64,000 bases of DNA from Mesorhizobium sp. Z1-4 (lineage in GTDB: Bacteria; Pseudomonadota; Alphaproteobacteria; Rhizobiales; Rhizobiaceae). Below, piece after piece: positions 25,281-53,321 of the stretch; the first letter of the stretch is position 1; each line of letters starts with the position of its first letter. Location: contig NZ_RCIO01000005.1 of NCBI RefSeq assembly GCF_004000235.1, positions 62,001-126,000 of the forward strand. Direction: 5' to 3'. The notes below the pieces were generated by a model. That model saw only the letters and a program-made list of their open reading frames with translations, had not been told where the DNA came from and ran no database searches. The translations under genes and the position numbers were made by a program.

Positions 25281-25886
25281 CTACTTGCTGCGGCCCCAGC
25301 GAGGCGGCGGCGGGCTCGAATTCGGGTTTTCGGGCCGCTTGCGGCGGAACAGCGAGGCGACAAAGCCGAGCAGGCCCAGCGCCATCAGAATAAAGCCGGC
25401 GGGTATTGCACGCGGATCGAGGTCGAACGCGCCGGCATTGACGATCAGGTCGACGCTGTTGAAGCGGTCGACGCCGGCAATGCCGGGGCCGAATTCGAAC
25501 ACATACTGGTCGTGATCCACGCTGTGCAGCCGCTCGGCTTCCATGCGATAGCCTGTTTCGCCGCTTTGCGGATTGATTGTGCGGACATCCGCTTCGGCGA
25601 AATGCATCACGACCGAGGTCACATATTCGCCGTCGCCGGTCACGTTCATGGTCAGAAGCGGCTTGGTATCGCTGCGGATCAGCGCCCCGTCGGCACGAAG
25701 ATCGACGCTGACCGAAACCGGTGCCTCGGGCGAGGCGAGCGTCACTTCTGCCGGCGTGAAGCCGTTGCCGCGTTCGAAAACCCGCCAGGTTCCGATCTCG
25801 TAGCCTGAAACGTTCGATGCCGCCCAGGGATAGGCAATGCCCAGGCCGGCGCCGATCAGGATCATGAGCAGGAAGACAAACCGCAT
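25281..25886 (-). CDS. Conserved membrane-anchored protein of unknown function
   Basis: A 201-residue protein with hydrophobic helices at both ends: FVFLLMILIGAGLGIAYPWA (3-22) and GFILMALGLLGFVASLFRRK near residue 175. Between them lies a beta-rich region of about 145 residues (VSVSVDLRADGALI, LLTMNVTGDGEYVTSVVMHF), which should face the periplasm. The C-terminus is proline- and basic-rich. I recognise no named domain. It converges on the crotonase gene 12 bases away and stands about 110 bases downstream of the glycine-rich protein gene, past a terminator hairpin, so it is probably transcribed separately. Confidence 0.75.
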   Translation of the reverse strand: MRFVFLLMILIGAGLGIAYPWAASNVSGYEIGTWRVFERGNGFTPAEVTLASPEAPVSVSVDLRADGALIRSDTKPLLTMNVTGDGEYVTSVVMHFAEADVRTINPQSGETGYRMEAERLHSVDHDQYVFEFGPGIAGVDRFNSVDLIVNAGAFDLDPRAIPAGFILMALGLLGFVASLFRRKRPENPNSSPPPPRWGRSK

Positions 25887-25994: not shown

Positions 25995-26579
25995 CTAGCG
26001 CATGGCCGATTGCTGCATCAGGCGGCACATGGCGACCAGATTGCGATCATAGGAGTACGGGTTCGACGTGACTTCGATGCATCTGGTGCGGAAGCGCCGG
26101 ACATCGGCACTTGAAAGCCGCGAGAACACGCTGCCGGGCGTGAAGCTGTTGTTGCCCGTCGCCCCGCCGCCGCCCGTTGGCCCGCCAGGTATACCGGGTG
26201 TTCCGATGCTGACATTGAGCCCGCCGCCGTTGCCGACACTGACATTGGCCGTCGTGCCGCCAAGACCGGCCGTCGCATTGGCGCTGATCCCGCCGCCGCC
26301 GACATTGGCGCCGGCGCTTGCGCCAAAGCCTCCACCGCCACCGACGGAAGCGCTGACCCCCGCACCGCCGCCGCCGACACTTGCGCCGACCGAGGCGCTG
26401 ACGCCCCCGTCTCCGCCGATATTGGCGCTCACAGAAGGATCACCCGAGCCGAGCCCGCCAATGCTTACGCCGCCAAGTCCACCTAGGCCGATGTCCTGCG
26501 CATGGGATGATGCGCCCAGCAACAGGCTTACGCCGAAAGCGGCTGCAGTCTTGGCCAAAAAAGCTGTATGTTTACGCAT
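25995..26579 (-). CDS. Secreted glycine-rich repeat protein of unknown function
   Basis: A 194-residue exported protein. A signal peptide (FLAKTAAAFGVSLLLGASSH, cleaved near HAQ) leads into about 110 residues made of short irregular repeats of the form GGGG-[VIF]-[SG]-A-x-[AV]-x-x, for example GGVSASVGASVGGGGAG and GGGGISANATAG. The last 50 residues are different: SSADVRRFRTRCIEVTSNP and LVAMCRLMQQSA, with two cysteines that could form a disulfide. ATG 26579 was chosen over 26615 for its GAGG ribosome site and the signal peptide. No function is recognised; a surface or matrix protein is possible. Confidence 0.72.
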   Translation of the reverse strand: MRKHTAFLAKTAAAFGVSLLLGASSHAQDIGLGGLGGVSIGGLGSGDPSVSANIGGDGGVSASVGASVGGGGAGVSASVGGGGGFGASAGANVGGGGISANATAGLGGTTANVSVGNGGGLNVSIGTPGIPGGPTGGGGATGNNSFTPGSVFSRLSSADVRRFRTRCIEVTSNPYSYDRNLVAMCRLMQQSAMR

Positions 26580-27110
26580 AACAATGCCTCGCTTTTCTTC
26601 CCCGTCGAATATCAATTCTCAGTTGAAGTTATTAACGCGATCATAAATGTCAGCATTATTTACTCATATTGAAAGTTGAGATGAAGTAGATTTAGCATTC
26701 AACCGTAACGGTAATCAGGTTGTAGAATCTTTATGTATGTACATAAAATGGAGTAGGCGAGTAATATTAACTTGTTGAGTCCAATAGAATATTTAGTTGC
26801 TTTTGGTAACTTGTTTGGTTTGATATGTTGGATAACGGAATGTCCGTGCGTAGGTTCGCACGCGGAAAATCACATCTGCGTTATTCGTCTACGCCGAAGG
26901 TTGCTTCGCTAGGAATTTTCCAAGCCGGCCGTGCGTTGGCTCAATTTAGAATGGCTTCAGTTTCGGTGGGCGGGCGCTGAAAGAGAGGCCAGCAGGTTGC
27001 CGGATATGTCACCGCTGGCGGCGTCCGAGCCGCTATACCGAGCGCCGCTCGATCGCTTTCAGGGACGAATGCCGCCTCATGCGACCACCAAAGCCCCGAC
27101 GTTGGTTCCG
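26580..27110. other. Gene-free region with AT-rich half and several palindromes
   Basis: These 531 bases contain no gene I can support. From 26641 to 26820 the sequence is only about 31% GC by count, against over 60% around it. It includes a perfect palindrome at 26730-26747, ACCGTAACGGT at 26702-26712, and two short hairpins: CCGTGCG with CGCACGCGG (near 26844-26864) and CGAAG with CTTCG around GTTG (26895-26908). The last 180 bases regain normal composition. It should hold the promoter of the glycine-rich gene; a small structured RNA is possible. Confidence 0.5.
26730..26747. promoter_or_regulatory. Perfect AT-rich palindrome upstream of the glycine-rich protein gene
   Basis: Eight-base arms TTTATGTA and TACATAAA are separated by TG, about 150 bases before the gene at 25995-26579 (minus). 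The size and symmetry suit a dimeric transcription factor. No other copy was seen in the window. Which factor binds is unknown. Confidence 0.35.
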
Positions 27111-27623
27111 TCAGGCGAATTGCCGGCCGGCCTCGCTGCGCTGGAAGTAGATCAGGTCGAGCGAAGGCGCGGCCTTGCCGAGCACTGTAAGCACCATATG
27201 CGCGTGCCCGCGGTGATGCGTCTGATGATTGAAGAAGTGCGCCAACGCTGGTGCAAGGCGCTGCGACACGGTGCGCATGTCCGTGACTGTCATGTAGGTG
27301 AAGCGCCCTGCAAGGGCGGGTTCATCAAGCGAGTCGACCCAGGCAACTATTCGCGCGTCTTCCGTGTCCCGGGCCGCCTTCAGCTTGCCGAGTTCTGCAA
27401 ATAATGTCGCATCGAGCTGCGATGGCGCGTCGCCTTCTCCGGTAAAGCGCTTCAGCCAAATGCGGTCCGCCACCAATACGTGGTTCAGGGTTCCGTGCAT
27501 GGAATGGAAGAACGCGCCGGTTTCCTTCCGGTATTCTTCGTCGCTCAGCGCCTCTGCCGCATCGTAGATAAGCGCATTGGCCCACTTGTTGTACGCCGCC
27601 ATCATTGCAAAATGCTGTTTCAT
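27111..27623 (-). CDS. DinB family protein (putative metal-dependent thiol transferase)
   Basis: A 170-residue four-helix protein of the DinB/YfiT type. The helix MAAYNKWANALIYDAAEAL, the motif HSMHGTLNHVLVADRIWLKR and the C-terminal HFFNHQTHHRGHAHMVL supply the metal-binding histidines expected of the fold. Some relatives use bacillithiol or mycothiol, which this group lacks, so the cofactor here is uncertain. It starts with ribosome site GGGAG at 27623 and is divergent from a GST gene 64 bases away. The damage-inducible name of the family should not be taken as evidence of an SOS role. Confidence 0.87.
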   Translation of the reverse strand: MKQHFAMMAAYNKWANALIYDAAEALSDEEYRKETGAFFHSMHGTLNHVLVADRIWLKRFTGEGDAPSQLDATLFAELGKLKAARDTEDARIVAWVDSLDEPALAGRFTYMTVTDMRTVSQRLAPALAHFFNHQTHHRGHAHMVLTVLGKAAPSLDLIYFQRSEAGRQFA

Positions 27624-50985: not shown

Positions 50986-52002
50986 ATGAAGAGTATTTTG
51001 AAGGGTCTTGTGGGCGTATCGGTTCTCGCTCTGTCGGCGGGCGCTGCTTCGGCGGCCACGCTGGACGACGTGAAGAGCCGCGACGCGCTCAAATGTGGTG
51101 TGAGTCAGGGTCTCCCGGGCTTCTCCAATCCGGATTCGGACGGCAATTGGTCCGGCCTCGACGTTGATCTGTGCAAGGCGGTTGCCGCTGCCATCTTCGA
51201 CGATGCCTCGAAGGTCGAATACGTGCCGCTTTCGGCCAAGGAGCGTTTCACCGCGCTGCAGTCGGGCGAAGTGGATCTGCTTTCGCGCAACACGACCTGG
51301 ACCATGAGCCGCGACACGCAGCTCGGCCTGAACTTCTCGGTCGTCAACTATTATGACGGTCAGGGCTTCATGGTCCGTTCGTCCATGGGCATCTCGTCCG
51401 CATTGCAGCTTTCCGGCGCCGCGATCTGCACCAACACCGGCACCACCACCGAGCTCAACGTGGCGGACTATTTCCGTGCCAACAACATGGACTACGAGCT
51501 GGTCGCCTTCGAGAAGGCTGACGAGGTTGTCGCCGCTTACGATGCCGGCCGTTGCGACGTCTACACGACCGACCAGTCGGGCATCTATGCGCAGCGCCTG
51601 AAGCTGACCAACCCCGACGAGCACAAGGTGCTTCCGGAAGTCATCTCCAAGGAGCCGCTTGGCCCGGCAGTCCGCCAGGGCGACGATCAGTGGCTGAACA
51701 TCGTCAAGTGGGTGCACTTCGCCATGGTCGAGGCCGAGGAATCAGGCGTCACCCAGGGCAATGCCGAAGAGATGAAGGGTTCCGACAACCCGAATATCAA
51801 GCGTCTGCTCGGCACCGAAGGTGAGTTCGGCACCGCGATCGGCCTCGAAAACGACTGGGGCTACCGCATCATCAAGCATGTCGGCAATTACGGCGAAGCG
51901 TTTGCACGCAACGTCGGCCCCGACACGCCGCTGAAGATCGCCCGCGGCCAGAACGCACTGTGGTCCAATGGCGGCCTGCAGTACGCTCCGCCGATCCGCT
52001 AA
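50986..52002 (+). CDS. aapJ: General L-amino acid ABC transporter, periplasmic binding protein
   Basis: AapJ binds many L-amino acids in the periplasm and delivers them to AapQM. From ATG 50986 it has 338 residues with a signal peptide (SILKGLVGVSVLALSAGAAS) and the AapJ pattern CGVSQGLPGFSNPDSDGNWS, VEYVPLSAKERFTALQSGEV and SRNTTWTMSRDTQLGLNF. An alternative ATG at 50950 is in frame with GAGGGG just upstream; it would add 12 residues to the signal peptide, and either may be used. A hairpin at 52019-52044 follows its stop and may raise its yield over the permeases. Confidence 0.95.
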   Translation: MKSILKGLVGVSVLALSAGAASAATLDDVKSRDALKCGVSQGLPGFSNPDSDGNWSGLDVDLCKAVAAAIFDDASKVEYVPLSAKERFTALQSGEVDLLSRNTTWTMSRDTQLGLNFSVVNYYDGQGFMVRSSMGISSALQLSGAAICTNTGTTTELNVADYFRANNMDYELVAFEKADEVVAAYDAGRCDVYTTDQSGIYAQRLKLTNPDEHKVLPEVISKEPLGPAVRQGDDQWLNIVKWVHFAMVEAEESGVTQGNAEEMKGSDNPNIKRLLGTEGEFGTAIGLENDWGYRIIKHVGNYGEAFARNVGPDTPLKIARGQNALWSNGGLQYAPPIR

Positions 52003-52018
52003 GGGTTAGCTAGAAAAA

Positions 52019-52044
52019 GGGCTGTCCGGGAAACCGGGCAGCCC
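52019..52044 (+). terminator. Intercistronic hairpin after aapJ (attenuator/stability element)
   Basis: Arms GGGCTGTCCGG and CCGGGCAGCCC pair over 11 bp (one G-U) around a GAAA loop, 17 bases after the aapJ stop. No T-run follows, so complete termination is unlikely. Such elements commonly protect the binding-protein message from 3' decay so that AapJ outnumbers the membrane subunits. Confidence 0.65.
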
Positions 52045-52130
52045 GCACCAGGGAATACGTCGCGCCCAATATCGGCGGCCGGTCACCGGTCGCACAACAA
52101 AATCAATCGGCGCGAACGAGGGGAACACAA

Positions 52131-53321
52131 ATGGCCGTCACTACCGCCGGGGAATCGGCGCCAAGGGTTGCGTTGCTCAACGACCCGAAGATACGCGCGT
52201 GGATCGTTCAGATTCTGCTGCTGGTCGTTCTGGTGTGGCTGACATATGTCGGCATCCAGAACATGTTCGCAAACCTGCAGGCCGCCAACATCGCGTCCGG
52301 TTTCGGCTTCCTGAACCGCAACGCGGGCTTCGCAATCAGCCAGTCGCTGCTCGAATACGACCAGGCCACATCGACTTTCGGCCGGGTGTTTTTTGTCGGG
52401 CTGATCAACACGCTGCTGGTTTCGGCCGTCGGGATCGTGATTGCGACGATCCTTGGATTTGTTGTCGGCATTGCCCGGCTGTCGCAAAACTGGGTCGTGT
52501 CGAGGATCGCCACGGTCTACATTGAGACGCTACGCAACATCCCGCTACTGCTGCAGATTTTCGTTTGGTACTTTGCTGTTCTGCGGCTGCTTCCCGGCCG
52601 CCGCGATTCGCTCGACATGGGCTTTCTCGGTCAGCTCAACATATCCGGCTGGTATGCGCCCAAGCCCGTCTACGGCGACGGCATCAACCTCGTGCTCGGC
52701 GCGCTGGTAATCGCGATCGTTGCCATATTCTTCATTTCCCGGTGGGCCAGAAAGCGCCAGGAGCAGACGGGTGAGACATTCCCTGTCTTCTGGACGTCGG
52801 TCGGCCTGTTCGTTGGCCTTCCGCTGATCGCCTATTTCATCGCCGGTATGCCGCTTTCCTTCGAATATCCGGAGCAGGGCAATTTCGGTCCGCGCGGCGG
52901 CGCGCGCATCTATCCCGAGTTCATCGGCCTGCTGCTGGCGCTGTCCTTTTATACCGGCGCCTTCATCGCCGAGATCGTTCGGGCAGGCATTCTCGGCGTC
53001 AACAAGGGCCAGACCGAGGCTTCGCACGCGCTGGGGCTCCGCAACGGGCCCACGCTGCGGCTGGTGATCGTTCCGCAGGCGCTGCGGATCATCATCCCGC
53101 CGCTGACGAGCCAGTATCTCAATCTGACGAAAAACTCGTCGCTGGCGGTCGCCATTGCCTATCCGGACCTTGTTTCGGTCTTCGCCGGCACTGCGCTCAA
53201 TCAGACCGGCCAGGCAGTTGAGATCTTGATGATGACAATGCTGACATATCTGGTTCTGTCGCTGCTGATCTCGGCATTCATGAACTGGTACAACGCCAAA
53301 ATGGCGCTGGTGGAGCGCTGA
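52131..53321 (+). CDS. aapQ: General L-amino acid ABC transporter, permease AapQ
   Basis: One of two inner-membrane permeases of the amino-acid importer. The 396-residue protein begins with helix [20 protein letters not shown] and ends with the binding-protein-dependent transport domain; the coupling motif is [20 protein letters not shown], followed by [20 protein letters not shown]. The region [20 protein letters not shown] is typical of polar amino-acid permeases. It is 128 bases after aapJ and one base before aapM. Confidence 0.95.

Follow-up and report, generated by a model that had tools for sequence, protein, structure and literature searches.

Our analysis identifies an AT-rich island (26601-26820, assigned to neither strand) as, very probably, the promoter or upstream regulatory region of a minus-strand gene that starts at 26579 and encodes a glycine-rich protein. 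The island, which is 67% AT and contains 24 TA steps, lies within a 64-kb stretch of DNA from Mesorhizobium sp. Z1-4, the whole of which we refer to as the window. In our preferred reading, to which we assign a probability of roughly 0.57, the region would act as a promoter or silencing platform that is read by its composition and bound by the MucR/Ros proteins of the genome. MucR/Ros proteins are H-NS-like zinc-finger oligomers. The length and AT-richness of the tract, with its many TA steps, would permit them to bind without a fixed motif and, once bound, they would hold expression of the glycine-rich gene low until the arrival of a counter-silencing signal; we infer the binding of MucR, the repression and the existence of a counter-silencer alike. 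The island may work like a MucR-silenced promoter, and we regard it as a candidate rather than a proven member of that class. An earlier, sequence-only reading of this DNA had offered a silenced regulatory region, a small RNA gene and an imported remnant as possibilities, of which the first has the most in its favor: the stretch sits immediately before a gene start, its AT content is extreme and is kept among relatives without the sequence being kept, and the genome contains two MucR/Ros genes.

The AT-richness of the segment 26641-26820 is far from chance. Its GC content is 31.1% (0.311), in agreement with the approximately 31% reported from the letters alone, against 62.7% (0.627) for the whole window, and it is by far the minimum of the window, the next-lowest separate 180-bp stretch having a GC of 0.483. 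Extension of the segment to 26920 gives a GC of 0.371. Sliding 50-bp GC places the island between approximately 26600 and 26830, after which values return to approximately 50%. The AT content amounts to 67% over approximately 220 bp and 69% over 180 bp, and the lowest 100-bp GC of the island is 0.29. Across 400 kb of contig C1, about one-tenth of the 4.06-Mb genome, 0.045% of 180-bp segments are as AT-rich as 26641-26820. All of them fall at C1:51978-52588, within a reading frame of 400 codons (51874-53076) that lies close to a UDP-sugar dehydrogenase gene, and none in the 400 kb is intergenic.

The island is the part of the intergenic gap closest to the glycine-rich gene (25995-26579, minus strand, 194 aa), the start of which adjoins the gap. 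By eye, a ribosome-binding-site-like GAGG (26587-26590, minus strand) can be placed seven bases ahead of the ATG. The encoded protein opens with a hydrophobic, signal-like stretch ending in an Ala-x-Ala-like site (likewise by eye), continues with glycine-rich repeats and finishes with a C-terminal part bearing two conserved cysteines; it is probably secreted. It belongs to an unclassified family: the protein matched nothing in Pfam, NCBIfam or the sequences of the PDB, and nine family members matched nothing in Pfam. A structural model built from nine sequences has a mean pLDDT of 42 and is confident only over approximately residues 157-190 (approximately 81), where two helices bearing both conserved cysteines are predicted. 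The upstream neighbor is a DinB-fold gene (27111-27623, minus strand; Pfam DinB, 8.9e-30). From the end of DinB to the start of the glycine-rich gene the gap measures 531 bp on the minus strand, whereas 19 of the 20 other loci have gaps of 114-334 bp and L013 has one of 623 bp. On the opposite flank, 3' of the glycine-rich gene, the product of a further minus-strand gene (25281-25886) scores 80.5 bits against NCBIfam NF047381 (BspB, named as a type IV secretion effector), far below the cut-off of 350; by this score we read it as a distant relative and not as an equivalog.

Matches to the glycine-rich protein were present in 17 of 101 genomes, its own included, and in all six of the same-genus genomes searched. 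DinB lay within the fetched flanks of the gene in 10 of these 17, again including the genome under study. A first scan of genome contigs with the glycine-rich protein confirmed no relative. A second contig scan used alignment of DinB and took the best 80 of 584 confirmed loci, which are those nearest in DinB and not a random sample; the nearest named locus among these best 80 of 584 belongs to the Rhizobiaceae metagenome-assembled genome HCUG1432-7, with a DinB that is 88% identical. Glycine-rich frames were called by a script rule combining glycine fraction, GG pairs and C-terminal cysteines. A frame of this kind followed DinB in 24 rows and was called by the script in none of 67 control loci, in some of which the rule may have missed one. 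Removal of L027 (the same genome again), L028 (which shares its contig with L005) and L091 (whose frame is a different and longer one, with a gap GC of 0.46) reduced the 24 rows to 21, while L033 and L048 were retained although their frames lack the two-cysteine end. Loci L001, L002, L004, L021, L023 and L024 had been left out earlier because they overlap places already counted, and the comparison of 21 with 67 is restricted to loci with DinB inside the fetched flanks.

The DinB loci lacking a glycine-rich gene serve as a built-in control, for which the 400 bp after DinB were taken in the 67 loci without a glycine-rich frame by the script. Median values of the 100-bp GC minimum were 0.31 for the 21 gaps between DinB and the glycine-rich gene and 0.54 for the 67 controls (Mann-Whitney p ~1e-9, a statistic that ignores kinship among loci), and the minimum was 0.40 or less in 18 of 21 gaps against 2 of 67 controls. 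With the exception of L016, the gap was the most AT-rich 100 bp of the entire fetched locus (8 kb for the window) in 20 of the 21 cases; in the 250 bp before DinB itself, GC never falls below 0.46. Counting against our preferred reading, three of the 21 gaps are without strong AT-richness (L010, 0.48; L048, 0.45; L016, 0.65). The mixed GC upstream of family members not found next to DinB counts against it also, with minima of 0.32 for both L011 and L020, 0.41 for L022, 0.46 for L015, 0.47 for L012, 0.55 for L019 and 0.56 for L017. The sequence of L014 ends too near the gene to be usable for upstream GC. Contig 12 of G002 carries two neighboring glycine-rich copies, of which only L007, the one beside DinB, is strongly AT-rich upstream (0.37); the second copy, L024, has 0.53 and counts with the mixed cases against our preferred reading.

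The sequence of the gap was not preserved in the same way. Compared with 100 other genomes, the gap DNA gave no convincing match, and short matches near E = 1e-3 arose in two of the 100. One, in the sister species G005, is the start of the glycine-rich gene itself; the other, 27 bp in G016, covers the start of a frame that by eye looks TetR-type and was taken as chance. The gap DNA also found no match elsewhere in its own genome, and alignment of four same-genus gaps yielded a mean column identity of 50-55%. None of the 20 other gaps examined contains the dyad at 26730-26747 that is considered below. The best likeness to it among them, with 3 mismatches of 16, is in L042, the most AT-rich gap, and the G005 gap has 5 mismatches of 16; the gap of L046 contains a dyad with perfect 8-bp arms whose sequence is quite unlike. 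Alignment with relatives, which had been put forward as a check on the stretch, upholds the AT content of the gap and neither its sequence nor the dyad. Relatives keep the composition and not the sequence, and this fits a promoter silenced by MucR in an H-NS-like manner, or a site read by its composition. The locus thereby offers a comparative case of a promoter region that seems to preserve AT content and not sequence.

Candidate readers of such a site are present, as the genome encodes two PF05443 (MucR/Ros) proteins scoring 176 and 172 bits against a cut-off of 25.4, and a search of 41 genomes matched MucR in 39. Upstream of the first mucR gene the 100-bp GC minimum is 0.32, close to that of the island. 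The second has a weaker AT tract (0.41), which counts against MucR and for which we lowered its odds by 0.01. According to PMC10746212, the Brucella MucR sites at btaE (an adhesin gene), bpdB and babR span 141-217 nt with 74-83% AT and TA steps, and MucR represses adhesin genes as well as its own gene. The island resembles these Brucella abortus sites in being a long tract, AT-rich and dotted with TA steps, that lacks a strict consensus and is located upstream of a gene in an alphaproteobacterium that possesses mucR, and its length of approximately 220 bp is comparable to theirs (about 140-220 nt). Its AT content of 67-69% is lower than theirs, which tells against MucR; MucR binding and repression were measured in B. 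abortus, whereas the island is likened to those sites from its letters; and the B. abortus targets are an autotransporter adhesin, a phosphodiesterase and a regulator, whereas here an unclassified glycine-rich family is concerned.

Sinorhizobium meliloti MucR is described in PMC10572780 as binding AT-rich DNA that has TA steps, no consensus being required, and for Ml proteins and MucR a short core suffices if it is AT-rich and includes a TA step (PMC5693944). The island contains ten AT-only runs of at least five bases with a TA step; its TA-containing AT 5-mers do not exceed what base composition predicts (11 vs 13.5 +/- 3.9). The Sinorhizobium fredii MucR1 targets, treated as xenogeneic silencing in PMC8857273, share with the island AT-richness, a location near promoters and a host that is a related bacterium. 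They are reported to display a 10-11 bp T periodicity, whereas such periodicity is absent from the island (52 vs 53.9 +/- 4.6); this absence and the unremarkable TA count both weigh against MucR. A further difference from those targets is that the glycine-rich gene is GC-rich and that several relatives retain its neighbor, so that it does not resemble recent foreign DNA. Our literature search found no paper linking MucR with glycine-rich proteins of such a kind.

The 400 kb sampled from contig C1 contain six islands with a 180-bp GC of 0.40 or less. A LuxR-type autoinducer regulator is the site of one (L113 16966-17349), and two are in reading frames near the UDP-sugar dehydrogenase gene (L110 11906-13171). 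For Brucella, PMC10746212 lists both LuxR-type regulators and polysaccharide genes among those that MucR represses, and we counted these three islands as suggestive of MucR. The remaining three say nothing for MucR, two being of RpiR/SIS type (L120 7542-8019, between DUF6772 and RpiR genes; L115 19530-19740, beside a SIS-domain gene) and one lying inside a reading frame (L111 6748-7015).

MucR is the most likely reader of the island, and the chief competing explanation is a plain AT-rich promoter. A wider proposition may be advanced more tentatively: that in Mesorhizobium-like Rhizobiaceae the glycine-rich family, often situated behind DinB, is controlled by a promoter selected for AT content alone and read by MucR oligomers, and that its product is an unrecognized surface or secreted structural protein. 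The unclassified family is, in any event, a candidate for inclusion in the MucR regulon of Rhizobiaceae.

An AT-rich promoter operating without MucR, whether UP-element-like or easily melted and serving strong or conditional expression, is an appreciable but lesser possibility. AT-richness upstream of a gene suits any promoter, and the position before the gene start and the retention of AT content in relatives are explained equally well by this alternative; the TA and T-periodicity patterns, being at the level of base composition, are also in its favor. A simple promoter, however, needs only tens of bases, whereas approximately 220 bp are AT-rich here, and the best site in a sigma-70 scan (9 of 12 matches to a rhizobial consensus) was reached by 114 of 300 shuffles. 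More specific control, in which the dyad TTTATGTA-TG-TACATAAA (26730-26747, no strand assigned) would be the operator of a dedicated dimeric regulator of the glycine-rich gene, is improbable in our estimation. Termed a perfect palindrome in the sequence-only reading, the dyad does have perfect 8-bp arms, around a central TG that is asymmetrical. Of 1000 dinucleotide shuffles of 26641-26820, 17 produced an 8-bp-arm dyad with a spacer of at most 6, which speaks for an operator; 17 of 500 shuffles of the 280 bp from 26641 to 26920 did so too. Approximately 16 of 19 bases, aligned by eye, resemble a stretch upstream of one of the genome's own mucR genes, which also speaks for an operator; yet the 16-bp core occurs once in the genome, the 20 other gaps contain nothing closer than the L042 likeness, and no conservation of the mucR-upstream stretch was seen across the regions before 18 other mucR genes (18 of 29 fetched loci). 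That stretch, TTATGTATGTAGATACAA (L128), lies approximately 160 bases upstream of the mucR start. The shorter element ACCGTAACGGT is present as reported, at 26702-26712 (no strand assigned), with 5-bp arms and a 1-base center; as a class it is at chance level, a dyad of this form appearing in 27.8% of 500 shuffled versions of the 280 bp (26641-26920). The window contains the exact pattern ACCGTNACGGT a single time, and 2 of 100 shuffles of the whole window reproduced it.

The two other origins suggested for the stretch fared poorly. That it is a remnant of imported AT-rich DNA is the least probable of the explanations considered: the gap is indeed longer than in 19 of the 20 other loci, and extra DNA may adjoin the island, but plasmid and phage records contain no match, none exists elsewhere in the genome, and in most relatives that carry the gene pair the corresponding place is occupied by an AT-rich gap of their own. 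Scarcely better placed is the proposal that the hairpin-bearing part of the gap is a small RNA gene. The hairpins are real, although three and not two short perfect stems are present (26835-26847, 26845-26862 and 26895-26908, no strand assigned), the first two overlapping, in the same gap beyond the AT island. Three within 74 bp lend the proposal some weight, as an equal number of stems (four by script, nested ones included) was reached in 0.6% of 500 shuffles of 26821-26940, an interval picked after the hairpins had been seen. Against it, the region has no Rfam match at curated or relaxed thresholds, promoter- and terminator-like sites are at chance level, the folding of 26800-26980 is ordinary on both strands (z -0.19 and -0.72), and the comparison with 100 other genomes turned up no matching DNA. 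Dyads and hairpins are at most mildly unusual and constitute the least meaningful part of the stretch. Past the AT island, the same gap also contains a 14-bp direct repeat (86%) at 26844 and 26929.
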